Notes under the pieces: model-generated
The model's database searches: none
What the model saw: the letters and a program-made list of their open reading frames with translations, nothing else
Told to the model about the DNA's origin: nothing
Source of the DNA: Actinocatenispora comari
GTDB lineage: Bacteria; Actinomycetota; Actinomycetes; Mycobacteriales; Micromonosporaceae
Length of the DNA: 64,000 bases
Direction of reading: 5' to 3'
Assembly (NCBI RefSeq): GCF_017312725.1
Contig: NZ_BOPO01000002.1
Location: forward strand, 62,001-126,000
Position numbers and translations under genes: made by a program
Part shown: positions 38,897 to 49,920 of the stretch, piece by piece
Position numbering within the stretch: position 1 is the first letter of the stretch
How the letters are laid out: every line of letters starts with the position of its first letter

Positions 38897-38940
38897 CCGG
38901 TCACCGCGGCGGCACGTCGCCGCCGCGCGCCGACCGGTCA
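38894..38940. terminator. Bidirectional hairpin containing both convergent stop codons
   Basis: Outer arms TGACCGGTC (38894-38902) and GACCGGTCA (38932-38940) and inner arms CGCGGCGGC (38905-38913) and GCCGCCGCG (38919-38927) pair perfectly around a five-base loop. The first TGA is the stop of the MBL gene and the last TCA is the stop of the TetR gene on the other strand. Confidence 0.8.
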
Positions 38941-39474
38941 GCCCGGCCGGGTCTCGACGCCGTACCGGACCAGGTCGAGCAGCCGCGCGGGCGATCCGCT
39001 GGCCAGTGCGACCCCGCTGGCCAGGGCCAGCAGGTCCGCCGGGTCGAGGTCGGGGCGGACGGCGCCGGACCGGCGGGCCCGGTCGACCAGCCCGGCCGCG
39101 GTCCGGTGCATCGCCGCGTGCCACTCGTCGAACCGTTCGGTGCGCTGCTCGCCGCTGGTGGCCGCGTGCGCCAGCGCGCGCTTGGTGGCGACGTGCGCGA
39201 CGAACTCACCGAGCCAGTCGAACAGCGCCTCCGCCGGGTCCGCGGTGGTCGCCGCGTCGCCGCGGGCGCACAGCTGCGCCACCTCGTCGGCGTACGCCGC
39301 GACGAGCAGGTCGCCGCGGGTCGGGAAGTTGCGGTAGAGGGTGGCGTTGCCGACGCCGGCCCGCCGCGCCACCTCGTCCAGCGGTACGTCCGGGCCGGCC
39401 TCGTCGAAGAGCTCCCGCGCGGCCGCGAGCAGCCGCTCGGCGTTGCGGGTCGCGTCGACCCGGCGTGCGGCCAC
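38938..39474 (-). CDS. TetR-family repressor, beside a SnoaL-like gene
   Basis: The product is 178 residues. The DNA-binding part is LAAARELFDEAGPDVPLDEVARRAGVGNATLYRNFPTRGDLL (residues 16-57). The C-terminal part, ending RLLDLVRYGVETRPG, is of the short type common in regulators of small oxidoreductase operons. The GTG at 39474 has AGGAGG upstream. Two GGGGA-N2-TCCCC sites lie 20 and 45 bases ahead in the gap to the divergent SnoaL-like gene, so it probably represses both itself and that gene. Confidence 0.88.
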   Translation of the reverse strand: MAARRVDATRNAERLLAAARELFDEAGPDVPLDEVARRAGVGNATLYRNFPTRGDLLVAAYADEVAQLCARGDAATTADPAEALFDWLGEFVAHVATKRALAHAATSGEQRTERFDEWHAAMHRTAAGLVDRARRSGAVRPDLDPADLLALASGVALASGSPARLLDLVRYGVETRPG

Positions 39475-39493: not shown

Positions 39494-39530
39494 GGGGATC
39501 TCCCCAGTACGTTGAAACGGGGAGTTCCCC
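39494..39530. promoter_or_regulatory. Two GGGGA-N2-TCCCC operator sites
   Basis: GGGGA at 39494-39498 with TCCCC at 39501-39505, and GGGGA at 39519-39523 with TCCCC at 39526-39530. Outer flanking bases also pair in each (T/A and C/G). The centres are 25 bp apart. They lie between the TetR gene and the SnoaL-like gene, the natural place for autoregulatory operators. Confidence 0.72.
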
Positions 39531-39549
39531 GGATAGTGCCAGTGTAGCC

Positions 39550-39621
39550 ATGACCGAGCGAATCATCAGCATGGTGCGTCGTGCCCGCGGCGGCGTGCCG
39601 GGGCAGGAGGAACGCCGATGA
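39550..39621 (+). CDS. Predicted 23-codon leader peptide ahead of the SnoaL-like gene
   Basis: From ATG 39550 a 23-codon frame reads MTERIISMVRRARGG and ends QEERR, with its TGA inside the ATGA overlap with the next start at 39618. The DNA GAGCGAATCAT near its start and the GGAGGAACGCCGATGAG at its end recur, in the same order, ahead of the GNAT gene at 49843 (opposite strand). Translational coupling is likely; whether the peptide itself matters is not known. Confidence 0.45.
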   Translation: MTERIISMVRRARGGVPGQEERR

Positions 39622-40019
39622 GCCTGACCACCGACGACCGGGTCGCCATCACCGACCTGATCAACCTGCACGGGCTGTACGCGGACAGCGGACAGCTGGA
39701 CCGGCTCCGCGAGCTGTTCACCGCCGACGTGGCGTACGACGTCAGCGACGTCGGGGGTGGCGTGCTGCACGGCGTCACGGCCGTCATCGACGCCGGGTAC
39801 GCCCTCGGCGCCGCCAACCCGCTCGGCCACCACGTCACCAACACCGTGCTCACCGAGTTCGCCGACGGCCAGGTACGCGCGTGGTCCAAGGCGATCGCGA
39901 TCCACACCGACCACAGCTGCGGCAGCGCCACCTACGAGGACACCGTGGTGCGCACCGCGGACGGCTGGCGGATCAGCCACCGTACGGTGCGCGCCCGCCG
40001 CGTCCCGCTGCAGCCCTGA
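39618..40019 (+). CDS. SnoaL-like protein under TetR control
   Basis: The product is 133 residues: SLTTDDRVAITDLINLHGLYADSGQLDRLRELFTADVAYD, with the later strands RAWSKAIAIHTDHSCGSATYEDTVVRTADGWRISHRTV. The helix-loop at the start is that of the SnoaL-like NTF2 group related to ring-hydroxylating dioxygenase small subunits. It probably binds a small aromatic or polyketide-like compound. AGGAGG precedes the ATG at 39618, and the start overlaps the stop of a 23-codon leader frame. The divergent TetR gene and two palindromes suggest ligand-induced expression. Confidence 0.82.
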   Translation: MSLTTDDRVAITDLINLHGLYADSGQLDRLRELFTADVAYDVSDVGGGVLHGVTAVIDAGYALGAANPLGHHVTNTVLTEFADGQVRAWSKAIAIHTDHSCGSATYEDTVVRTADGWRISHRTVRARRVPLQP

Positions 40020-40092
40020 GCGTCGGCCCGCGGCACCGACGCGTGCCGGCGAGCACCGCGACCCGTACCGGCGAGCAGTGCCGCACCGACCG

Positions 40093-41430
40093 TCAGCCGG
40101 CGGCGCCGAGCCGGACCGGCAGGGACTGCAGGCCGCGCAGCACGAGCCGGTCCCGCCGCACCGGATCGCCGGCGGCGCGGATCGCCGGAAACCGGCGTAC
40201 CAGCTGGGTGAACGCCACCGTCGCCTCCAGCCGGGCCAGGCTGTTGCCCAGGCAGACGTGCGCCCCCGCACCGAAGCTCAGCGGCCGCACGTCGGCACGG
40301 GACGGGTCGAACACGTCCGGGTCCGGATAGCGGGCCGGGTCCCGGTTGGCGGCGCCGACCAGGGCGATCAGGTCGGCACCCCGCGGTACCGGCTGGTCGG
40401 CGACGGACCGCCCGTCGACCAGCGCGGTGCGGGTCAGCACCTGCACCGGCGACTCGTACCGCAGCACCTCCTCGACGAACCCGGCGACCGCCGCGTCGCC
40501 GGTACCAGGCTCGGTCGCGGCGCCGGCCGAGGGAGCGGTTGCGGCGCCGGTCGAGGGAGCGGTCGCGGCGGCCGACGTGGCGGCGTGCAGGGTGGCGAGC
40601 AGCTCCGGGCGGTCGAGCAGCAGCGCGAGGCCGCTGCCGAGCAGGCTGGTGGTCGTCTCGAACCCGGCGACCAGCAGCAGGATCAGGTTGCCCAGCAGCT
40701 CGGCGTCCGACAGCCGCCCGTCGTCGGCGTCGCGTACCGCGACAAGCGCGCTGACCAGGTCGTCCCGCGGCTCGGCCCGGCGCGCGGCGACCAGCCCGGC
40801 GAACCGTCCGGCGAGGTCCTTCGCGGCCGTTTCGGCCGCCGGCGTGGTCGGCCCGGTCAGTTCGAGGACCTCGGTCAGGTCGGCGGCCAGCGGCCGCAAC
40901 CGGGCGTGGTCGCGCGCCTCGACGCCGAGCAGCGCGCAGATCACCGTGACCGGCAACCGGAACGCGAACCGGTCCATGAAGTCGACCGGCCCGCGCTCGG
41001 CGGCGAGCTCGTCGAGCAGGTCGTCGACCGCCCGTTCGACCTGCGGGGCGAGCGCGGCCACCCGGCGCCGGGTGAACACCTTCCCGATCAGCGACCGCAT
41101 CCGCGGGTGGTCCGGCGGGTTCGCGCGCAGGATCGAGCGGTTCAGCAGGTCGAGGGGGCCGTCGCCGCCCTGCCCGGTCGCCATCGTGTACAGCCCGAAG
41201 CCCGGGTCGCGCAGCAGCTGGTCGACCGCCTGGTACCCGGTGACCAGGTACAGCGTGTCGGCGATCCGGGCCACCGGGCCGAGCCGGTGCGCCTCGGCGT
41301 AGAGCGGGTACGGGTCGGCCCGGCCGGCGGGCGCGAGCAACCGCTCGACGAGCGTCGCGGCCGCACCGCTCGGGCCTCGGGAGGCGGTCGCGGCGGAGCC
41401 GTCGGGGATCTGCGGTTCGGGCTGGGACAC
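40093..41430 (-). CDS. Cytochrome P450
   Basis: The product is 445 residues. The I-helix is LLVAGFETTTSLLG (Glu-Thr acid-alcohol pair), the K-helix is EEVLRYESP (ExxR), and the heme-binding loop is FGAGAHVCLGNSLARLE with the axial Cys near residue 393. It is a soluble class I-type bacterial P450 that needs a ferredoxin and reductase from elsewhere. An extra Ala/Thr/Pro/Gly-rich loop (TAPSTGAATAPSAGAATEPG) just before the K-helix is encoded by 24-bp tandem repeats. The GTG at 41430 is used. It is divergent from a TetR gene 124 bp away, the likely regulator. The substrate is unknown. Confidence 0.92.
   Translation of the reverse strand: MSQPEPQIPDGSAATASRGPSGAAATLVERLLAPAGRADPYPLYAEAHRLGPVARIADTLYLVTGYQAVDQLLRDPGFGLYTMATGQGGDGPLDLLNRSILRANPPDHPRMRSLIGKVFTRRRVAALAPQVERAVDDLLDELAAERGPVDFMDRFAFRLPVTVICALLGVEARDHARLRPLAADLTEVLELTGPTTPAAETAAKDLAGRFAGLVAARRAEPRDDLVSALVAVRDADDGRLSDAELLGNLILLLVAGFETTTSLLGSGLALLLDRPELLATLHAATSAAATAPSTGAATAPSAGAATEPGTGDAAVAGFVEEVLRYESPVQVLTRTALVDGRSVADQPVPRGADLIALVGAANRDPARYPDPDVFDPSRADVRPLSFGAGAHVCLGNSLARLEATVAFTQLVRRFPAIRAAGDPVRRDRLVLRGLQSLPVRLGAAG
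40517..40570. repeat. 24-bp tandem repeat inside the P450 gene
   Basis: Units begin at 40517, 40541 and (partial) 40565, each starting GCGGCGCCGG or GCGGCGGCCG. The period is in frame and encodes the eight-residue units of the loop before the K-helix. The number of copies may differ between strains. Confidence 0.7.
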
Positions 41431-41554
41431 GGCGGCACCTCGGCACGATCGGGGTTCGGCGGCGACGCACCGCCCTGGTCACCCCAGTTTTTCAATACAC
41501 ATTGTCTCTGTCAAGCCAGATGTCTTCTACCTGTCCATCGTGTACGCTACCGGC

Positions 41555-42127
41555 ATGCCGAAGATCTGGAGCCAGACGATCGAGGCACACCGCGACGCGG
41601 TGCGCGAGGCGACCATCGCCGCCACCGCCGCGCTGGTCGCCGAGCACGGGCTCAGCGGCGTCACGATGTCGCAGATCGCCAAGGACACCGGCATCGGCCG
41701 CGCCACGCTGTACAAGTACTTCCCCGACGTCGAGTCGATCCTCGTCGCCTGGCACGACCGGCGCATCGACGCCCAGCTGGCCGAGCTGGTCCGGGTGCGC
41801 GACCGCACCGAGGGCGCCGGCCCCCGCCTCGACGCCGTCCTGACCGCATACGCGAAGGCGAACCGCGCCGGGCACCCGCCGGCCGATCCGGCCGCCGCGA
41901 TGCTGCACCGCGGCGCGCACGTCACCACCGCGCACCACCGCCTGCACGAGTTCGTCCGGGAGCTGATCGTCGACGCCGCCGCGGCCGGCGACCTGCCCGG
42001 TGACGTGCACGCCGACGAGCTCGCCGGCTTCTGCCTGCACGCGCTGGAGGCCGCCCGCGGCCGAAGCGCCGCCGCGGTACGCCGCCTGGTCCGCGCCACC
42101 CTCGCCGGCCTCGCCGCCACGCCGTGA
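41555..42127 (+). CDS. TetR-family regulator, beside the P450 gene
   Basis: The product is 190 residues. MPKIWSQTIEAHRDAVREATIAATAALVAEHGLSGVTMSQIAKDTGIGRATLYKYFPDVESIL is a standard TetR DNA-binding domain. The C-terminal domain is short and Ala-rich (TetR_C-like). The ATG at 41555 is chosen over a GTG at 41540 because the domain starts here and TACGCT lies exactly six bases upstream (41543-41548), a leaderless arrangement. The AT-rich gap to the P450 gene repeats TGTC four times (41503, 41509, 41521, 41532) and offers TTGACA on the minus strand as a -35 for the P450. It probably controls that gene. Confidence 0.88.
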   Translation: MPKIWSQTIEAHRDAVREATIAATAALVAEHGLSGVTMSQIAKDTGIGRATLYKYFPDVESILVAWHDRRIDAQLAELVRVRDRTEGAGPRLDAVLTAYAKANRAGHPPADPAAAMLHRGAHVTTAHHRLHEFVRELIVDAAAAGDLPGDVHADELAGFCLHALEAARGRSAAAVRRLVRATLAGLAATP

Positions 42128-42163
42128 CCGCCACCCCGTCGCCGCGTACGGGAGGATGGCGGG

Positions 42164-42964
42164 ATGGTCGACGATGTGTGGGCGAGCCTGGCCGATCCGT
42201 TCGTCGAGGGCGCGTACGCGACGGTGAAGGGCACGGTGCGCACCTACGTGCTGCACCGGCACCTGCTCACCCACCTGCCCCCGCCACCGGCCACCGTGCT
42301 CGACGTCGGCGGCGGCGCCGGTCACCAGTCGTTTCCGTTGGCCCGCCGGGGATACCGGATCACCCTGCTCGACTCGTCCGAGGCCATGCTGGCCGCCGCG
42401 CGGCGGCGGCTCGCCGCCGAACCCGCCGCGGTACGAGACCGGGTCCGACTGCTGCCCGGCCGCGGTGAGGACGCGGTGACGCTGGCCGGCGCGCACCGCT
42501 ACGACGCGGTGCTCTGCCACGGCGTGCTGATGTACCTGCCCGACCCGGCGCCGATGATCGCGGCGCTGTGCGGCTGCGTCGCGCCCGGCGGCATCGTCTC
42601 GGTGCTCGGCCTCAACGCCGCGACCCTGGCGGTACGGCCGGCGCTCGCGCACCGCTGGCGGGACGCGCTGGCGGCGTTCGACGCCGCCGGCGAGCGCGGC
42701 GTGCTGGGGCTCGACACCCGGGCCGACACCGTCGAGGGCCTGTCCGCGCTGTTCACCGGGCACGGCGCCAGCCCGCTGGCCTGGTACGGGCTCTGGCTGT
42801 TCAGCGACTGGCTGACGCTCGATGCCGACGACCCCGAGCTGCCCGACATCGCCGAGGTGGAGCTCGCGGCGAGCCGGCGCGACCCGTACCGCCGGCTCAG
42901 CCGGGTCTTCCACCTGCTCGCCCGCGCCGAAGCGGCCACCGCACCGGGCCCGCAGCGGCGATGA
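42164..42964 (+). CDS. SAM-dependent methyltransferase
   Basis: The product is 266 residues. Motif I is TVLDVGGGAGHQSFPLARRG, followed by the acidic strand end TLLDSSEAML, and motif IV is YDAVLCHGVLMYLPDPAPMI. The layout resembles the CmoM/SmtA-like class I enzymes. The acceptor is unknown; RNA-modifying relatives exist, but substrate cannot be read from sequence. The ATG at 42164 follows GGGAGGATGGCGGG. It lies 36 bp after the TetR gene on the same strand and may be transcribed with it. Confidence 0.87.
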   Translation: MVDDVWASLADPFVEGAYATVKGTVRTYVLHRHLLTHLPPPPATVLDVGGGAGHQSFPLARRGYRITLLDSSEAMLAAARRRLAAEPAAVRDRVRLLPGRGEDAVTLAGAHRYDAVLCHGVLMYLPDPAPMIAALCGCVAPGGIVSVLGLNAATLAVRPALAHRWRDALAAFDAAGERGVLGLDTRADTVEGLSALFTGHGASPLAWYGLWLFSDWLTLDADDPELPDIAEVELAASRRDPYRRLSRVFHLLARAEAATAPGPQRR

Positions 42965-43028
42965 GTTTCGCTCCGGCGTGGCGTCTACCCGCCGGACGCA
43001 CCCGAATGCCGGAACCCGAGGGGCTCAC

Positions 43029-43610
43029 ATGCGAAGGCTCAAGGTCATCGAACACGTCTCGCTGGACGGGGTGGTGCAGCACTCCGTCGACGGCGACGAC
43101 TTCCCGTACCCCGACTGGAACGTGCCGTTCCGGACACCCGAGGGCCGGGACGCGGTGCTCGCCATGCACGGCGACCGCTTCGACCTGGTACTCGGCCGGC
43201 ACACCTACGACCTGTGGGCGCGGTTCTGGTCCACGGTGTCGGGCAACCCGATGGCGGACCGGATCAACGCGGCCACGAAGTTCGTCGCCACGCACCGGCC
43301 GGAGAGCCTGGAGTGGGGCCCGGTCGAGCCGCTGGGGCCGGACGTGGCCGAGGGGGTGCGTCGGGTCAGGGCGAGTGACGGCCCGGATCTGGTGCTCTGC
43401 GGCAGTTCCACGCTCACCTCGACGCTGCTCGGGAACGGGCTGGTCGACGAGCTGCTGCTGATCGTCTACCCGATCGTGCTGGGTACCGGGAAGCGCTTCG
43501 TCGCCGAGGGCACGCCGGGCCGGTCACTCGCGCTGGCCGAGACCACGACCACCCCCGCCGGGGTCGTCCTGAGCCGGTACCAGGTCACCGGTGCGCTGCC
43601 GGCGGCGTAG
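43029..43610 (+). CDS. Dihydrofolate reductase/RibD C-domain family protein
   Basis: The product is 193 residues opening MRRLKVIEHVSLDGVVQ, the hallmark of the YwjB/YyaP-like branch of the RibD C-terminal (DHFR-like) family. DFDLVLGRHTYDLWARFW-type sequence (here RFDLVLGRHTYDLWARFW) and the NADPH-binding PDLVLCGSSTLTSTLLGNGLVDELLL follow. The enzyme probably reduces a pterin- or flavin-like or other carbonyl compound with NADPH. The ATG at 43029 has GAGGGG upstream. Behind it the strand turns to the mannose block. Confidence 0.87.
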   Translation: MRRLKVIEHVSLDGVVQHSVDGDDFPYPDWNVPFRTPEGRDAVLAMHGDRFDLVLGRHTYDLWARFWSTVSGNPMADRINAATKFVATHRPESLEWGPVEPLGPDVAEGVRRVRASDGPDLVLCGSSTLTSTLLGNGLVDELLLIVYPIVLGTGKRFVAEGTPGRSLALAETTTTPAGVVLSRYQVTGALPAA

Positions 43611-43713
43611 CCGGTAGGCCCGCGACCCGGTCGCGTGCCGGTCGGGCCCGTCTTCGCCGCGCAGCACCCGCACCGCCGCCCGGGTGGTACCGGTGGCCGC
43701 GGCCGGCGCGGCG

Positions 43714-44880
43714 TCAGGCGGTGGTCGCCTGGAAGACGGCACCGTACCCGGAGAGCCGGACGGTGCGGTGGTCGGCCGCGACGAACGCCGCCTCGCCCGG
43801 GCCGAGCGACAGCTCGCCCGCACCGTCGTCGGCGATCACCCGGCCGTGCACGCAGAGCAGCACCCGCGGCCCGTCCGCGGCGAGCTCGACCCGCCGGTGC
43901 GGCCCACCCACCCGCGCCACCGACAGCGCGAACTCCGCCACCCCCGGCAGCAGCTGCGGGTAGCTCTCCAGCCCGCCGGCGACCGGCACCGGGTCGGCGA
44001 TCGGCGGCGGCGCCGGCTCGTAGCGCAGCAGCCGCTGCAGCTCGGACACGTCCACGTGCTTGGGGGTCAGGCCGCCGCGCAACACGTTGTCGCTGGCCGC
44101 CATCAGCTCGACACCGACCCCGGCAAGGTAGGCGTGCAGGCAGCCGGCCGGCGCGTACAGCGCCTGCCCGGGGCGCAGCCGCACCTGGTTGAGCAGCACC
44201 GCGACCAGCACGCCGGGGTCACCCGGATGCCGCCGCGCCAGCTCCACCATCAGCCGGTACCCGGGTGCCCGGTCGGTCCGGCCGGACGCGGCGTGCACCG
44301 CCACCTCGACGGTACGCACCGGCACCGCGAGCAGCGCGGCGACCGCGGCCCGGATCCCGTTCGCCGCCTGGTCCGACCGCAGCGCCGCCACCACCGCATC
44401 CAGCTCCGGTACGGCCAGCCCGGCGAGCAGCTCCGCCGACCGCTGCGGCGGCGCGAACCCGCACAGCGCGTCGAAGTCGGTCAGCGCGACGATCATCTCC
44501 GGCTTGTGGTACGGGTCCTTGTAGTTGCGCTGCGGCGCGGACAGCGGCACCCCGGCGGCGTTCTCTGCGTCGAAACCGGCCCGCGCCTGGTCCGCGTTCG
44601 GGTGCACCTGCAGCGACAGCGGCTGGTCCGCGGCGAGCAGCTTGAGCAGGAACGGCAAGCGCCCGAACCGCTGTGCCGGGCCGAGCATCGCGGCCGGCTC
44701 GGCGGCGATCAGGTCCGCCAGCGTGTCGCCACCATCCACTGTGGACGGGGCGGCCGGGTGCGCACCGAGCCACAGCTCCGCCTCCGGCGTCTCGGACGGC
44801 ACCGGCCGGCCCTGGATCGCGGCGATCGCGGCGCGCGACCCCCACGCGTACGGCTGGATCCGGCCGGTCAGTGCCCGCAT
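43714..44880 (-). CDS. manA: Mannose-6-phosphate isomerase, class I
   Basis: The product is 388 residues. Zinc ligands and active-site motifs are visible: LSLQVHPNADQA (Gln/His), YKDPYHKPEMIVAL (His-Lys-Pro-Glu) and the final His/Arg loop in LYAPAGCLHAYLAGVGVELMAASDNVLRGGLTPKHVD. It interconverts fructose-6-phosphate and mannose-6-phosphate and feeds the phosphomannomutase at 47645. The ATG at 44880 with GGGGAGCGG upstream is preferred to the open frame reaching 44955. It is the last gene of the minus-strand run that holds CDF, SIS, Trm112 and manB. The M. tuberculosis counterpart is Rv3255c. Confidence 0.94.
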   Translation of the reverse strand: MRALTGRIQPYAWGSRAAIAAIQGRPVPSETPEAELWLGAHPAAPSTVDGGDTLADLIAAEPAAMLGPAQRFGRLPFLLKLLAADQPLSLQVHPNADQARAGFDAENAAGVPLSAPQRNYKDPYHKPEMIVALTDFDALCGFAPPQRSAELLAGLAVPELDAVVAALRSDQAANGIRAAVAALLAVPVRTVEVAVHAASGRTDRAPGYRLMVELARRHPGDPGVLVAVLLNQVRLRPGQALYAPAGCLHAYLAGVGVELMAASDNVLRGGLTPKHVDVSELQRLLRYEPAPPPIADPVPVAGGLESYPQLLPGVAEFALSVARVGGPHRRVELAADGPRVLLCVHGRVIADDGAGELSLGPGEAAFVAADHRTVRLSGYGAVFQATTA

Positions 44881-44992
44881 GTTCCGCTCCCCCTCGACGC
44901 CGACGCCGCCCGGCGCCGGCGCGGCCTCGACGCCTCCGACGTCACGACCCGCCACGCCGCCCGCGCCGGTACCCGCTCCGACGCCGCCGGCC

Positions 44993-45934
44993 TCAGGACT
45001 GTTCCGACTGCTTCGCGGCGGCCGTCCGGTACAGGTCCGGCTCGATGTAGATGACGTGCGCGATCGGCACCGCTGCCCGGATCCGAGCCTCGATCGCGTC
45101 GATGCCGCGGGCCACCTCGCGCGCCGTGTCGTCGTGGTGCACCGCGACCTTCACCGCCACCAGCAACTCCTCCGGGCCCAGGTGCATGGTGCGCATGTGG
45201 ATGATGCGCTCGGCCTCCGGCCCGTCGAGCACCGCCGCCTCGATCGCCCGCACGTTCGCCACCGTCGCCGACTCGCCGAGCAGCAGGCTCTTGGTCTCCA
45301 CCGCGAGCGTCGCGGCGACGCACACCAGCAGCGCGCCGATCGCGAGGGTACCGATGCCGTCGAACACGCCGTTGCCGGTCAGCAGCGTCAACCCGACCCC
45401 GAACAGCGCGAAGATCAGGCCCAGCAGCGCCGCCGAGTCCTCCAAAAGCACGACCGGCAGCTCCGGGTTCTTCGCCCGCCGGATGTAGCCGAGGAACCCG
45501 ACCTTGCGCCGCTCGGTGGCCGACTCCTTCAACGCGGTCCGGAACGAGTTGCCCTCCAGCACGATGCTGACCACCAGCACCACGATCGGCACCCACTGCC
45601 AGGAGTGGATGGCCTCCGGGTGGATCACCTTGTGGTAGCCCTCGTACAGCGCGAACAGGCCACCGACCGCGAACAGCACGATCGCCACGATGAACCCGTA
45701 GATGTAGCGCTCCCGGCCGTACCCGAACGGGTGCTCCGGGTCCGGGTCGCGACGCGCCCGCCGGCCACCGACCAGCAGCAACACCTGGTTACCCGAGTCG
45801 GCCACCGAGTGGATCGACTCGGCCAGCATCGACGACGACTGGGTCAGCAGGAACGCGAGGAACTTCACCACCGCGATGCCCAGGTTGGCTCCCAGCGCCG
45901 CCAACACCGCCTTGGTACCGCCGGACGAGCTCAC
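44993..45934 (-). CDS. Cation diffusion facilitator (CDF) transporter
   Basis: The product is 313 residues. It has six membrane segments and the metal-site motifs of CDF proteins: ESIHSVADSGNQVLLL in helix 2 and LLEDSAALLGLIFALFG in helix 5. The loop DPEHPFGYGRERY is typical of the family. The C-terminal cytoplasmic domain ends HVIYIEPDLYRTA. It exports Zn, Mn or similar divalent ions by proton exchange. GAGGAGAGG precedes the GTG at 45934. It is placed between the SIS gene and manA, where M. tuberculosis has no such gene. Confidence 0.9.
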   Translation of the reverse strand: MSSSGGTKAVLAALGANLGIAVVKFLAFLLTQSSSMLAESIHSVADSGNQVLLLVGGRRARRDPDPEHPFGYGRERYIYGFIVAIVLFAVGGLFALYEGYHKVIHPEAIHSWQWVPIVVLVVSIVLEGNSFRTALKESATERRKVGFLGYIRRAKNPELPVVLLEDSAALLGLIFALFGVGLTLLTGNGVFDGIGTLAIGALLVCVAATLAVETKSLLLGESATVANVRAIEAAVLDGPEAERIIHMRTMHLGPEELLVAVKVAVHHDDTAREVARGIDAIEARIRAAVPIAHVIYIEPDLYRTAAAKQSEQS

Positions 45935-45951
45935 GAGCTGCCTCTCCTCGG

Positions 45952-46011
45952 GTGACGAGCCACGAAGTGACGAGTCATCGGGTGACGAATCATGGCGTGA
46001 CGAAGTCCTTC
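45952..46011. repeat. 15-bp tandem repeat, four copies
   Basis: GTGACGA starts at 45952, 45967, 45982 and 45997, an exact 15-bp period; the eight bases between vary. The last copies run into the 3' end of the SIS gene (stop at 45990-45992 on the minus strand). The array fills the gap before the CDF gene start. Confidence 0.85.
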
Positions 46012-47198
46012 ATCTCCGACACCGCCGGCACCGCCATCGGGTCGAACCCGTGCGCCAGCGCCAGGTACACCGAGGCGAAGTCGGGTATCGCGGTCAGCGA
46101 CGCCAGCCGCTCCAGCGGCGACGCACCCTCGGCCCGCAGCACCGTGCAGCGCACCCCGCGCCGCTCCGCCAGCGACTGCACCGCCTCCGCGCGGCGGCTC
46201 TCCACCGCCGGCGGCTCCTCGCCGTCGCTGTCCTCCGCCGGGGTACCGGACTCGAAACCGTCGTCGCGCAGGATCACCAGCCGCAGCCGGGTCCCGCCGC
46301 CCGACGGCTCGTCGGCGAAGATGTCGCGCTGCGACTCGGCCAGCGCGCCGAACACCCCGTCGAGCAGGCCGACGCTGCCGCGCCCGGCCTCCAGCAGCGA
46401 GTCGGCCACCGACGGGTACCGCGCGTTCGCCGCCAGCATCTCGGCGAACCGGCCGGCCGCCACCGCGGCGAGCGGGGTGGACCCCCACACCACCGGCAGC
46501 GAGTTGGCCAGGTCCAGGGCGAGCGCCTTCGCCGGGTTGGTGAACGCGTCGTTGCCGACCTTGCAGCGTTCCGCGTCGTCGTCCAGCCGGGTCGCCGCCT
46601 CGGCCAGATCGGCCTCCGCGATCCGCAGCAGCCCCAGCGCCCGGCCGGCCAGCAGCACCGGTACGGTCAGCGCCCACAGGCTGGCGCGCGCCGGTGCCCG
46701 CCGCGGTACCGGGATGAACGGTGCCCGGGCGCGCTCGGCGACCGCGGCCAGCTCGGAGCCGGGCGCGCCGATCGCCACCAGCCGGGCCCCGCGCCGCGCC
46801 GCCGCCTCGGCCGCCGCCAGCGCCTCCGGGCTGCGGCCCGACGCCGACACCGCCAGTACCGTGTCGGCGGCGCCGACCCAGCCGGGCACGCCGGCGCTGC
46901 GGTGCGCGACGACCGGCACCGGGCAGCGCGGACCGGCCACCGCGGCGAGCACGTCACCGGTGCGCGCGGCGGTACCGGCGCCGGCCACCACCAGCGACCG
47001 CGGCCGGCCCTCGTCGGCCAGCGACGCCAGGTCGGCCTCGGCCGCGAGCGACATCGCCTCCCGAAGCTGCGGTCCGCCGGACGCGATCGCCCGCAGCATG
47101 AACCCCGGATCCGCGGCGTCGATGCGGGCCGGGTCGTCCAGCAGCGCCTCGTCGATGTCGCGGTAGCCGCTGACCCCCTCCGTACCGGGCTCGGTCAT
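45990..47198 (-). CDS. SIS-domain sugar isomerase-like protein
   Basis: The product is 402 residues in two SIS modules. RSLVVAGAGTAARTGDVLAAV and VLAVSASGRSPEALAAAEAA form the first sugar-phosphate site. KALALDLANSLPVVWGSTPLAAVAAGRF lies in the second. This is the layout of the bifunctional phosphoglucose/phosphomannose isomerase-like family, found next to manA and manB in actinomycetes (Rv3256c in M. tuberculosis). Whether it is an active isomerase is not known. The expected catalytic Glu/His are not all apparent by eye. GGAGG precedes the ATG at 47198. Confidence 0.83.
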   Translation of the reverse strand: MTEPGTEGVSGYRDIDEALLDDPARIDAADPGFMLRAIASGGPQLREAMSLAAEADLASLADEGRPRSLVVAGAGTAARTGDVLAAVAGPRCPVPVVAHRSAGVPGWVGAADTVLAVSASGRSPEALAAAEAAARRGARLVAIGAPGSELAAVAERARAPFIPVPRRAPARASLWALTVPVLLAGRALGLLRIAEADLAEAATRLDDDAERCKVGNDAFTNPAKALALDLANSLPVVWGSTPLAAVAAGRFAEMLAANARYPSVADSLLEAGRGSVGLLDGVFGALAESQRDIFADEPSGGGTRLRLVILRDDGFESGTPAEDSDGEEPPAVESRRAEAVQSLAERRGVRCTVLRAEGASPLERLASLTAIPDFASVYLALAHGFDPMAVPAVSEMKDFVTP

Positions 47199-47247
47199 GC
47201 CGCCACCTCCGCCGCGCGCGGGCGTCGCGCGCCACCAGGCTGCGCGG

Positions 47248-47454
47248 TCACGACTCGGACTCGGCCGGGCCGCCGTGCGCCTCGTCCAGCAGCAGCACCG
47301 GAATGCCGTCCACCACGTCGAAGACCCGGTGACACTCGGTGCAGGTCAGCGTCTGCGCCGCGGCGTCGTAGGTCAGTGGCGCGTGATGCTCGTCCGGGCA
47401 CGCCAGGATCGACAGCAGGTCATCGTCCAGCACCGCCGGGGTGGTCTCGGACAT
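47248..47454 (-). CDS. Trm112-family small zinc-binding protein
   Basis: The product is 68 residues. LLSILACPDEHHAPL and LTCTECHRVFDVVDGIPVLLLDEA give the paired-Cys site and the VxDGIPVLL signature of the Trm112/UPF0434 family. Eukaryotic Trm112 activates methyltransferases; the bacterial role is unclear. The ATG at 47454 with GGGAGGTGAG upstream is preferred to the longer frame. It sits between manB and the SIS gene, in the same run, with 49 bases to the SIS start. Confidence 0.87.
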   Translation of the reverse strand: MSETTPAVLDDDLLSILACPDEHHAPLTYDAAAQTLTCTECHRVFDVVDGIPVLLLDEAHGGPAESES

Positions 47455-47504
47455 GACGCTCACCTCCCGTTGTTCCCGCCGGCACCGCCGGCGGATCGTC
47501 CTCA

Positions 47505-47640
47505 CCGGCCGCGCCGGCTGATCCTCGTCACCGGCCGCGCCGCTGCTTCTCGTTGCCGGCCGCGCCGGCTGATCCTCACCACCGGCTCGGCCGGCCCGTT
47601 TGGCGCCGCCGCTTCACCGGCCGGGTCGGCCGGCGGTCGC
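47505..47640. repeat. Degenerate tandem repeat of about 26 bp
   Basis: CCGGCCGCGCC starts at 47505 and 47531, with related starts at 47556, 47582 and 47617. The first three units share GGCCGCGCCG and a following ATCCTC or TTCTCG. The spacing (26, 25, 26, 35) is not a multiple of three, and the array lies in the gap between manB and Trm112, so it is non-coding. Its palindromic cores could form hairpins in the mRNA. Confidence 0.7.
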
Positions 47641-47644
47641 CTGG

Positions 47645-49006
47645 TCAGTCGCGGACGACGGCCAGTACCTCGTCGCGCAGCTGCGCCATCCGCTGCTCGT
47701 CCCGGGCCTCCACGTTGAGCCGCAGCAGCGGCTCGGTGTTCGAGGCGCGCAGGTTGAACCAGGACCCGTCGTCGAACTGCGCGGTCAGCCCGTCCAGCTC
47801 GTCCAGCTCGGCGTCGGCGAACCGCGCCTTGACCGCGGCCACCCGGGCGGCCTGGTCGTCCACGGTCGAGTTCACCTCGCCGGACGCCACGTACCGGCTG
47901 AACTCGGCCACGAGTTCCGACAGCGGCCGGCTCTGCCCTCCCAGCGCGGCCAGCACGTGCATCGCGGCCAGCATCCCGGTGTCGGCGAACCAGAAGTCCT
48001 TGAAGTAGTAGTGCGCCGAGTGCTCGCCGCCGAACACCGCGCCGGTGGACGCCATCTCCGCCTTGATGAACGAGTGTCCGACCCGGGTACGCACCGGCAC
48101 CCCGCCGTGCTCCCGCACGATCTCCGGTACCGCGTGCGACACGATCAGGTTGTGGATGATCGTCGCGCCCGGCACCTTCGCCAGCTCCCGGGTCGCCACC
48201 AGCGCGGTGATCGCCGACGGCGGCACCGGCTCGCCCCGCTCGTCGACCACGAAGCACCGGTCGGCGTCACCGTCGAACGCCAGCCCGACGTCGGCGCCGA
48301 CCTCGCGGACCTTCGCCTGCAGGTCGACGATGTTCTTCGGCTCCAGCGGGTTCGCCTCGTGGTTCGGGAACGAGCCGTCGAGCTCGAAGTACATCGGGAC
48401 GATCTCCAGCGGCAGCGCCGCCAGCTTCTCGTCACCGAGCACCGTCGGCACGCTGTAGCCGCCCATCCCGTTCCCGGCGTCCACCACGACCTTGAGGCGG
48501 CGGATCCCGGACAGGTCGACCAGCGACCGCAGGTGCTTCGCGTAGTCGGTCAGCAGGTCGCGCTCGGTCACCGTGCCGGTCGTGGCGGCCGGCTCCGGCG
48601 ACTCGGCGAGGAACTGCTGCGCCAGGTCGCGGATGTCGGCCAGCCCGGTCTCCTGGCCGATCGGCCGGGCACCCGCCCGGCACATCTTGATGCCGTTGTA
48701 CCGGGCCGGGTTGTGGCTCGCGGTGAACATCGCGCCGGGCAGGTCGAGCGACCCGGAGGCGTAGTAGAGCATGTCGGTCGGGCCGAGCCCGGCGTCCACC
48801 ACGTCGGCGCCCTGGCCGGTCGCGCCCGCCGCGAACGCGGCCACCAGCAGCGGCGACGAGGTACGCATGTCGTGCGCGACGACGATCCGGTCCGCCCCGG
48901 TCACCCGGACGAACGCGGCACCCACCGCCCGCGCGACCCGCTCGTCGAGCTGGTCGGGCACCACACCGCGCACGTCGTACGCCTTGACGATCTCGGTCAG
49001 GTCCAC
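47645..49006 (-). CDS. manB: Phosphomannomutase/phosphoglucomutase
   Basis: The product is 453 residues and all four active loops are intact. The phosphoserine loop is AMFTASHNPARYNG, the metal loop is AFDGDADRCFVVDE, the sugar-specificity loop is FGGEHSAHYYF and the phosphate-binding loop is RASNTEPLLRLNVEA. It converts mannose-6-phosphate to mannose-1-phosphate (and may act on glucose). The GTG at 49006 gives the usual start VDLTEIVKAYDVRG; the open frame extends to 49042 without similarity. Counterpart: Rv3257c (pmmA). It starts the minus-strand run that reaches manA. Confidence 0.94.
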   Translation of the reverse strand: MDLTEIVKAYDVRGVVPDQLDERVARAVGAAFVRVTGADRIVVAHDMRTSSPLLVAAFAAGATGQGADVVDAGLGPTDMLYYASGSLDLPGAMFTASHNPARYNGIKMCRAGARPIGQETGLADIRDLAQQFLAESPEPAATTGTVTERDLLTDYAKHLRSLVDLSGIRRLKVVVDAGNGMGGYSVPTVLGDEKLAALPLEIVPMYFELDGSFPNHEANPLEPKNIVDLQAKVREVGADVGLAFDGDADRCFVVDERGEPVPPSAITALVATRELAKVPGATIIHNLIVSHAVPEIVREHGGVPVRTRVGHSFIKAEMASTGAVFGGEHSAHYYFKDFWFADTGMLAAMHVLAALGGQSRPLSELVAEFSRYVASGEVNSTVDDQAARVAAVKARFADAELDELDGLTAQFDDGSWFNLRASNTEPLLRLNVEARDEQRMAQLRDEVLAVVRD

Positions 49007-49120
49007 CGCACGCTCCCGTCCGTCCTGCGGAGTCGGATGCACCGAAGGGTACCGACCCGGGCCGACCGGCCACGACGTAGGTGTGCGGCACCGACCGCCG
49101 AATGCGGGCGCACCGGCAGG

Positions 49121-49843
49121 TCAGCCGGCGGCCACCGGGATGTGCCGGTACTCGTCGAGCGGGCGCACCGTGACCCGCTCGGCGGCGAGCGCGGTCGCCA
49201 TCCGCCGGGCCGCGCCGTCGACCGGGGCGCCCTCGGTGGCGCTCAGGTGGTCGAACCAGAACCGGCGCACCGGTTCGGCGTCGACCGCCTGCCCCTCCCG
49301 CCGGTACCGCTGCTCGACGTGCAGCGCGATCAGCAGCATCCCGTACGCCCGGTCCTCGTCGGCCCGCAGCGCCGGCTGGAAGTACGGCAGGTCCAACGCG
49401 CTCGCCCCGTACCGCTGGTAGAACCGCAGCCGGCCGACCGGATCGCCGTGCGCCAGCGAGGCCCGGTGCCGGTCCGGCCGCTCCACCTCGGCGAGCACCA
49501 CGCACGGGTCGTACCGCTGCGACCAGGTGCGGATCGCCTGCTCCAGCAGCTGGCCGCCGACCCCGTGACCGCGGCTGCCCGGCCGCGCCGCGAGATAGCC
49601 GAGCAGCATCACCCGGGCCGGCTCGTACCACTCGCCGACGGCCGCGCCCCACGGCACGCCGGTGGGGTCCAGCGCGACGGTCAGCGTGGCCCGCCGGGCC
49701 GTGATCGCGTCCCGCAACCCGGCCAGCGACACCAGCTCCGCCGGCGGGAACGAGGGCTGCAGGATGTCCGTGTACACCGCGTCGACGAGCGGACCGGTGC
49801 GCCGCACCTCGGTGACCGTCAGCGGAGCGGGCTCGATACTCAT
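49121..49843 (-). CDS. GNAT-family acetyltransferase
   Basis: The product is 240 residues. The acetyl-CoA-binding turn is seen in ARVMLLGYLAARPGSRGHGVGGQLLEQAIRTW (R-x-x-G-x-G type), followed by a strand with VVLAEVERPD and a late RFYQRYGASALDLPY. The acceptor is unknown. The ATG at 49843 has GGAGGAACGCCG ahead and overlaps the stop of a 26-codon leader frame. It is inserted between manB and DUF3499, a position where M. tuberculosis has no gene. Confidence 0.85.
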   Translation of the reverse strand: MSIEPAPLTVTEVRRTGPLVDAVYTDILQPSFPPAELVSLAGLRDAITARRATLTVALDPTGVPWGAAVGEWYEPARVMLLGYLAARPGSRGHGVGGQLLEQAIRTWSQRYDPCVVLAEVERPDRHRASLAHGDPVGRLRFYQRYGASALDLPYFQPALRADEDRAYGMLLIALHVEQRYRREGQAVDAEPVRRFWFDHLSATEGAPVDGAARRMATALAAERVTVRPLDEYRHIPVAAG

Positions 49844-49920
49844 CGGCGTTCCTCCTTCGTCGGAACACCGACGAGGCACGACACACGATGCCCATGATTC
49901 GCTCGCTCGCGCTCGCTCAT
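49840..49920 (-). CDS. Predicted 26-codon leader peptide ahead of the GNAT gene
   Basis: On the minus strand from ATG 49920 a 26-codon frame reads MSERERANHG and ends TKEERR, with its TGA inside the ATGA overlap with the GNAT start. The DNA GAGCGAATCAT, then GTCGTGCC, then GGAGGAACGCCGATGAG matches the leader at 39550. The middle of the two leaders differs by a small indel, so the peptides agree only at the two ends. Confidence 0.45.
   Translation of the reverse strand: MSERERANHGHRVSCLVGVPTKEERR

Follow-up and report, generated by a model that had tools for sequence, protein, structure and literature searches.

Leaders of two unrelated Actinocatenispora comari genes as likely copies of a MIRU-like element inserted at start codons

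We found the same short repeat ahead of two genes of the window (the whole 64,000-nucleotide stretch of Actinocatenispora comari DNA analysed here), and we consider it likely that both leaders represent an interspersed, MIRU-like element of Micromonosporaceae, inserted at start codons and coupled to the host genes by leader translation (Table 1). MIRU is already known as a mycobacterial element of the same kind. No description of the Micromonosporaceae repeat was found in the literature searched, including passages of PMC12548453 and PMC9392950. The proposal of the preliminary description that the leader and not the gene is repeated, as a mobile or amplified translation-coupling unit, finds support in its presence or absence at orthologous start codons, in tandem arrays and in the conservation of the frame.

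Table 1. Positions in the window of the two repeat units, their parts and the genes that follow them
Feature	Position	Strand	Support
Near-consensus 82-bp repeat unit upstream of the GNAT gene, running from DTGAG to DTGAG	49839..49920	-	Covariance model R1, 104.1 bits, E 5.1e-24; alignment A1
GNAT leader ORF MSERERANHGHRVSCLVGVPTKEERR*, 26 codons + stop; stop TGA 49842-49840 in ATGA of the GNAT gene	49840..49920	-	
GNAT-unit hairpin CTCGTCGGTGTTCC-gacgaagga-GGAACGCCGATGAG, which encloses part of the Shine-Dalgarno as well as the start codon	49839..49875	-	RNAfold -24.4 kcal/mol; covariation over 28 copies
Shine-Dalgarno GGAGG within the GNAT unit	49851..49855	-	Read from sequence
GNAT-like gene downstream of the leader, 240 aa	49121..49843	-	
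Degenerate repeat unit upstream of the SnoaL gene	39540..39622	+	Covariance model R1, 43 bits, E 8.9e-8
SnoaL leader ORF MTERIISMVRRARGGVPGQEERR*, 23 codons + stop; stop in ATGA of the SnoaL gene	39550..39621	+	
Hairpin region of the degenerate SnoaL unit	39586..39622	+	RNAfold -13.0 kcal/mol
Shine-Dalgarno GGAGG of the SnoaL unit	39606..39610	+	Read from sequence
SnoaL-like gene downstream of the leader, 133 aa	39618..40019	+	PF13577, E 1.4e-20

Both leader blocks lie where the preliminary description had placed them, and both frames end, as it had said, within the ATGA of the following gene. The downstream proteins are indeed unrelated (BLASTP E 0.11). The first could be confirmed as SnoaL_4, while the identity of the second as a GNAT is borderline, with Acetyltransf_1 passing its cut-off (22.6 bits against 20.7) and Acetyltransf_7 failing (23.6 bits against 27). 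The repeat unit measures about 82-85 bp and includes a hairpin absent from that account. The GNAT copy (G000:C2:111839-111920 in contig coordinates) is near consensus and the SnoaL copy (G000:C2:101540-101622) is degenerate, the first codons of its leader being in a frame that differs from the consensus frame. A chance likeness of the two leaders was considered and rejected: with at most one mismatch, GAGCGAATCAT matches three times in the window, against 0.28 expected. The preliminary description also lacked the covariation of this hairpin over the start codon, DTGA as the target and MIRU as a known mycobacterial element of the same kind.

The repeat is not confined to these two loci. R1 recovered 72 matches at E < 1e-3 in the own genome (150 candidates scored) and 23, 64 and 72 at E ≤ 1e-3 in the three congeners G001, G002 and G003. 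With a second covariance model, R2 (E ≤ 1e-4, 74 candidates scored per genome), matches were obtained in 21 of 33 other Micromonosporaceae genomes and in 4/24 genomes from other families of the order. The absence of further copies in related genomes, which would have spoken against a repeated leader, was thus not what we found. By blastn of the GNAT leader region against the own genome, 51 places were listed at E ≤ 10 (40 of 80 first-look candidates scored), the best other copy having an E of 7e-31. An exact-pattern scan of named genomes, too strict for this repeat, returned only nine stretches, namely one from Planosporangium, three from Catellatospora, one from Micromonospora radicis and four from MAG records. 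Blastn with one unit detected no copy in phages or plasmids, and an exact pattern none in viral contigs. Copy number varies locally: the GNAT locus holds one unit in the own genome versus two in G003, and G002 carries an array of 78-bp units.

The typical unit is about 80 bp long (77-80 bp from start to start) and is bounded on both sides by DTGA(G). It holds an ORF of 22-28 codons whose stop lies inside the ATGA or GTGA of the next gene or the next unit. REP/BIME and MITE-type palindromes are likewise short, dispersed and amplified within one lineage, and are located outside genes. We think it very unlikely that the present repeat is an ordinary intergenic palindrome of this type, its position at start codons reflecting the survivors of selection and its ORF being incidental. 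It is indeed short, palindromic, dispersed and tandem, and among model-found units of non-founder length, a weak test of the frame, only 10/22 are in frame (P 0.16). Unlike those elements, however, the repeat sits on start codons and supplies an ORF, a Shine-Dalgarno sequence and a start codon: 125 of 143 full-length matches begin with a start codon and end in DTGA, 118/121 units have an SD-like sequence ahead of their last DTG, and the start-to-start distance is 2 mod 3 in 109 of 121 sense units, all 109 of which are open and coupled. Moreover, of 12 altered-length inserts at orthologous sites, 11 stop in the next DTGA and one is broken (P 5e-5 versus one third), a count that leaves out three SnoaL rows whose junction was misplaced and seven inserts without a junction start codon. 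Rfam 15 gave no match above the gathering score in seven loci, which also argues against a palindrome of this type. Among first units, 81 of 112 have an SD-like sequence ahead of the leader start itself, where shuffles give 34.8 +/- 4.5; here, as in all shuffles, background counts and unit pairs reported below, the relatedness of the copies is ignored.

What seems to be conserved is the translation of the leader rather than its peptide, since 109/121 units keep the frame, yet the codon positions vary alike (585, 573 and 657 differences at positions 1, 2 and 3 over unit pairs). The leader synonymous fraction is 0.237 versus 0.266 expected, and 6 of 12 aligned copies from other genera or MAGs, read by eye, lack one base early and use another reading frame. 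A functional peptide was rejected on the equal variation of the codon positions and on this change of frame, and a leader peptide sensing amino acids or antibiotics (attenuator) because a conserved peptide sequence is missing and the codon positions vary alike.

The hairpin that encloses the downstream Shine-Dalgarno and start codon covaries. Across 28 copies, 92.3% of the cells are paired versus 83.9% in shuffles, and 29 cells are changed on both sides versus 8.8; none of 500 shuffles reaches either value. Two of five covariation measures are not above the shuffles (both-side-changed pairs, 5 vs 4.4; further pair types, 15 vs 13.7). The last 37 nt of the unit have a median folding energy of -18.5 to -21.6 kcal/mol depending on the genome. 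A second small hairpin (A1 columns 28-50) is 95.2% paired, but we do not claim it because compensatory changes are lacking and it does not exceed the shuffles.

Covariation of a hairpin that covers Shine-Dalgarno and start would suit a regulatory leader, in which hairpin and uORF act as an attenuator or riboregulator (responding to temperature or to ribosome stalling on the peptide) for a regulon and copies are recruited by selection for control instead of selfish spread. Copies ahead of core genes, namely gatB, the adjoining amidase, carA, peptide deformylase and fumarase, fit this idea as well. We nevertheless regard it as quite unlikely, given the even drift of the peptide at all codon positions, the other reading frame in half of those 12 copies, the lack of an evident common function among ten downstream proteins tested, and sites that are occupied or free between close species.

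The comparison with the congeners agrees with a mobile or amplified leader. At orthologous sites, where flank identity is 81-96%, precisely empty sites were found at 9 of 19 in G002 and 8 of 22 in G003, five of them in both, fractions that are inflated because the 22 sites tested were preselected for having no matching fetched copy. Other orthologous sites are occupied by tandem or degenerate remnants or by ones fused in frame. In the fused ones, the leader start and the gene share one continuous frame (GNAT in G002 and locus L185 in G003), and locus L182 of G002 is a similar case. At the SnoaL locus of G002 the aligned leader frame starts without a start codon, so that the leader seems dispensable there. 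The DTGA of the leader coincides with the stop of an upstream frame of at least 100 codons in 64/95 first units, compared with 311/852 background sites. From these sequence comparisons we infer that the element moves, and that it behaves as a mobile or amplified start-codon insertion, mostly at stop/start overlaps. For gatB, the outgroup G001 has a degenerate coupled leader of 68 nt (by eye), and therefore absence in G002 and G003 by loss, instead of gain elsewhere, is possible; this comparison covers 30 loci read out of 37 genomes matched, one of them unreadable to the motif.

The inserted tiny frame and the ribosome-binding hairpin probably keep the host gene expressed. After insertion, the leader would be driven by the native ribosome-binding site, by the upstream gene or from a near-leaderless start. 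The translating ribosome would then melt the hairpin, terminate in the ATGA and re-initiate on the host gene, which would consequently still be expressed but depend on leader translation. Because the host gene would tolerate the insertion, the element could spread at DTGA sites. The weakest steps of this scheme are the spread, possibly through a putative trans-acting transposition or recombination system, and the tandem growth, which may occur by slippage or by insertion into the element's own DTGA ends. Translational-coupling leaders and bicistronic designs, in which, according to PMC12548453, a short uORF brings the ribosome past a repressive RNA structure to an overlapping start, would resemble the present leader in this. 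Those are single, natural or designed, whereas this leader is repeated and differs in presence between species.

An account of MIRU (mycobacterial interspersed repetitive units) was reportedly given by Supply et al. in 1997. For comparison we used 26 MIRU loci found by a pattern for the presumed MIRU core. Like MIRU, the present repeat is short, has tens of dispersed copies and some variable tandem arrays, inserts at start codons or DTGA sites between coupled genes, and joins an internal ORF to the host gene by a -4 stop/start overlap. A MIRU copy before a RegX3-like gene (L245) is likewise built as DTGA-ORF-DTGA, and an upstream open frame of 145 codons ends within it. The two differ in bacterial family (mycobacteria versus Micromonosporaceae) and in unit length, with a tandem spacing of about 51-55 bp in the pattern-selected MIRUs. 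The 50 nt before the MIRU frame stop have a median of -13.0 kcal/mol, and many such stops are not at DTGA. Exact coupling was seen at 9/26 MIRU loci, one of them with a 225-codon frame, against 109/121 units here, the comparison being unmatched. PMC12548453 describes MIRU as short, dispersed, apparently mobile start-codon repeats with an ORF coupled at -4 nt (ATGA) and variable tandem copies.

Could the repeat then be a true sequence-homologous branch of the MIRU family, diverged past recognition? Architecture and target are alike, one subfamily and many copies from other genera share a short GAGCGNAGCG core, and both elements tend toward an EERR-like frame end. Nevertheless, sequence homology was undetectable in the 26 MIRU loci (best E 0.27 with R1 and 3.1 with R2), and of 397 genomes from the order, 17 have the presumed MIRU core, all in one genus and none in Micromonosporaceae. 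We therefore hold this branch to be unlikely. The single searched genome of the MIRU-bearing genus (G043) gave no matches with either model, and another genome of its family (G056) gave one weak match with R1 and five with R2.

If the MIRU-like reading is correct, MIRU shifts from a curiosity of mycobacterial strain typing to an example of a wider strategy, by which DNA survives in operons by being translated. As a tentative extension, actinobacteria may harbour two or more families of minimal insertion elements that evolved independently, among them MIRU and the present one, which land on the 4-nt DTGA stop/start overlap and spread if the insert is translated in a frame that passes the ribosome to the next start. 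The hairpin could be both a translational lock and a DNA structure recognized for mobilisation. More than 100 natural uORF-hairpin-gene modules are offered for measuring translational coupling in high-GC actinomycetes, some of which have an empty orthologous site to serve as a matched control. For annotation, gene starts in these genomes may be placed too far upstream, inside the repeat, or the tiny ORFs may be called as genes.

Both leaders that the preliminary description placed ahead of the SnoaL and GNAT genes are present at those positions, as copies of a dispersed unit of about 80 bp.

Coordinates of the leader units and neighbouring features in the window
Feature	Position	Strand	Remark
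TetR-like gene	38938-39474	minus	divergent from the SnoaL leader
Palindromes GGGGATCTCCCC and GGGGAGTTCCCC	39494-39530		between the TetR-like gene and the SnoaL leader
SnoaL unit	39540-39622	plus	degenerate copy
SnoaL-like gene	39618-40019	plus	
GNAT-like gene	49121-49843	minus	
GNAT unit	49839-49920	minus	near the family consensus

A composite of the aligned copies gives the typical unit as ATGAGCGAGCGYCAGCGAGCGAATCATGGGCAYCGCGCGTC(+3)GTGCCTCATCGGCGTTCCGACGAAGGAGGAACGCCGATGAG. DTGAG, in which a start codon overlaps a stop, stands at both its 5' and 3' ends, so that neighbouring units of a tandem array share one such sequence. A 14-bp hairpin makes up the 3' half; its 3' arm holds the downstream start codon, and the GGAGG of the unit spans loop and arm. 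Among 28 copies, 92.3% of the hairpin cells were paired (83.9% in shuffles) and 29 cells were changed on both sides (8.8 in shuffles), values reached by none of 500 shuffles, while sliding the partner left pairing at only 36-55%. In the same copies we observed no excess of pairs altered on both sides (5 versus 4.4) or of further pair types (15 versus 13.7), and covariation gave no support to a smaller upstream hairpin. When 12 copies belonging to other genera or to metagenome-assembled genomes (MAGs) were aligned, a start-codon hairpin of different sequence was predicted there too. Separately, a second subfamily, whose loop is GAGCGAAGCGGAG and whose ends are similar to GGGCATGAG (L109:1501-1660, L111:1501-1585, L124:1501-1585, L246, L267), shares genomes with the main one and resembles the form of other genera.

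Searching 121 loci with R1, the covariance model of the 28 copies, yielded 150 matches, 144 of them non-redundant and 143 of at least 55 nt. A start codon came first and DTGA last in 125 of the 143; the other 18 were excluded and four antisense echoes dropped, leaving 121 units. The start-to-start distance was 2 mod 3 in 109 of these, all with a frame open up to the stop in DTGA, a count whose binomial value is nominal since the copies are related. Orthologous sites provide a better test, through inserts that have changed in length. After three of 15 were set aside for a misplaced aligned junction at SnoaL, eight of 12 stopped in the DTGA of the gene, three in that of a following unit (stop positions -76, -79 and -159) and one (L106 in the congener G002) was broken. 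Chance would couple one third (P = 5e-5), with some freedom coming from allowing the start within 3 nt of the junction; seven more inserts lacking such a start were left uncounted. On the other hand, among the units that the model found with a non-founder length, only 10 of 22 were in frame, which counts against the rule. Four spacers in G002 and G003 orthologous to L032, L035 and L108 (L176, L175, L195 and L198; 56, 125, 47 and 83 nt) carry scant or no recognisable repeat, yet have an open frame whose stop falls exactly in the next DTGA; they are either very old units or reflect a general rule for such spacers.

The leader peptide itself shows no conservation. Outside the hairpin, codon positions 1, 2 and 3 differed to a similar extent (585, 573 and 657 differences) and 23.7% of changed codons were synonymous (26.6% expected), in 256 non-independent pairs of units equal in length and differing by no more than 15%. 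Moreover, by eye, six of the 12 aligned other-genus or MAG copies, including Planosporangium and Catellatospora, are one base short in the 5' part, so that the same DNA reads MSERSERIMG rather than MSERQRANHG; all 12 units with intact ends in this group nevertheless keep the frame that leads to the ATGA stop. Since the peptide varies while frame and stop stay, selection seems to maintain translation of the leader and its stop rather than the product.

The last DTG opened an ORF of at least 50 codons in 101 of 118 terminal units (one being an antisense echo read through Ns), a figure that is weak alone because 409 of 849 background [AG]TGAG sites do likewise. The other 17 comprised 12 followed by another unit, three antisense echoes and two (L022, L159) with a 17-codon frame. 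Comparison with orthologues identified the downstream frames at 22 sites of the own genome as real genes. Ten downstream proteins tested belong mostly to unrelated Pfam families: SnoaL, GatB, a GatA-like amidase, carbamoyl-phosphate synthase small chain, an ABC ATPase, peptide deformylase, fumarase and two sigma factors; for the tenth, the GNAT protein, the hits are borderline. Upstream, 64 of 95 first-of-array units had a frame of 100 codons or more whose stop was the leader's own DTGA, against a background of 311 of 852 sites that still includes the units' own. Of 112 first units, 81 had an SD-like sequence ahead of the leader start, compared with 34.8 +/- 4.5 in shuffles (maximum 50).

The GNAT leader region, used as a blastn query, found 51 places in the own genome among the matches listed at E<=10, where 40 of 80 first-look candidates were scored. 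R1 gave at least 89 matches there at E<=1, both window copies included, and at least 72 below 1e-3, with the best 150 of 7852 candidates scored; E-values from both covariance models are rough. The preliminary description had taken the leader to be repeated, and further copies do occur in related genomes. R2, the model built across genera, had matches at E<=1e-4 in 29 of 61 genomes. All four members of the genus were among them, with 22-61 matches each, as were 21 of the 33 other genomes of the family, Micromonosporaceae (1-52), and, with 1-5 weak matches each, four of 24 from other families; with 74 candidates scored per genome, match counts are lower bounds. At E<=0.01, R1 matched four genomes of the genus, 20 of the rest of the family and two of other families. 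Plasmids and phages gave no match, nor did viral contigs by exact pattern.

Presence of the unit is polymorphic between species. The GNAT site holds one unit in the own genome, two near-identical tandem units in G003 and none in G001; in G002 the unit is truncated, with its start joined in frame to the gene (MSERQRANPEQRASSSQRAPL...). At SnoaL, the degenerate unit occurs in three species and is absent from G001; the leader frame aligned in G002 has no start codon at its beginning. We also compared 22 own sites, picked since no fetched copy matched them, with orthologous starts in G002 (19) and G003 (22). Nine and eight, respectively, were precisely empty (flank identity 81-96%), five in both: L018, L037 (gatB), L110, L111 (the amidase next to gatB) and L124. 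The L111 empty sites end much like the unit and may therefore retain a short remnant. For the other 10 and 14 sites, alignment was better when an insert was kept, whether intact, degenerate, fused or unrecognisable. At gatB, the 25 loci resolved in genomes outside the genus contained none of the three repeat motifs searched for, but the outgroup G001 has a degenerate 68-nt leader there, likewise ending in ATGA. Polymorphism is thus established; gain at some sites is likely, not proven. At L018:1460-1580 (+), the first ten bases of the host gene (ATGAGTGCCG) recur between a truncated unit and a second one that precedes the gene, an arrangement resembling nested insertion with duplication of the target.

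Beyond the anatomy, frame, covariation, position and polymorphism we observed, a mechanism may be proposed. Translation of the leader would open the hairpin, and termination in ATGA would feed re-initiation; tolerance gained in this way could allow the element to spread. The ATGAG direct repeats at both ends permit gain or loss of whole units by slippage; they are also consistent with insertion at DTGA and repetition of the target.

The closest known system is the mycobacterial interspersed repetitive unit (MIRU). MIRUs are described as apparently mobile, inserting at start codons, and their internal ORF is coupled to the gene with -4 spacing, with a likely minimal impact on expression (PMC12548453); senX3-regX3 is described with two or three 77-bp repeats (PMC9392950). 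A MIRU core pattern, scanned against 397 genomes of the order, matched 17, all of one genus, and none in the window's family. One locus so found, before a RegX3-like gene, has the DTGA-ORF-DTGA anatomy of our unit. Among 26 MIRU loci found with this core, the frame stops exactly in the next start in nine (one a 225-codon frame), reads on for 94-506 codons in seven, lacks a start codon in the frame used in eight, and stops elsewhere or before a very short frame in two. R1 and R2 recognise none of the 26. In architecture and target, the element works like a MIRU; membership by sequence is not shown.

Two observations concern the assembly. G000:C1:29855-29913 and G000:C124:29855-29913 match with the same coordinates and score, suggesting a duplicated stretch, and a run of Ns, masked or unresolved, lies within a tandem array of units at L036 (G000:C8, about 74000-74260). 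Finally, GGGGA/TCCCC pairs similar to the window palindromes occupy the corresponding position in G001, G002 and G003, and these palindromes are possibly the operator of the TetR-like regulator.
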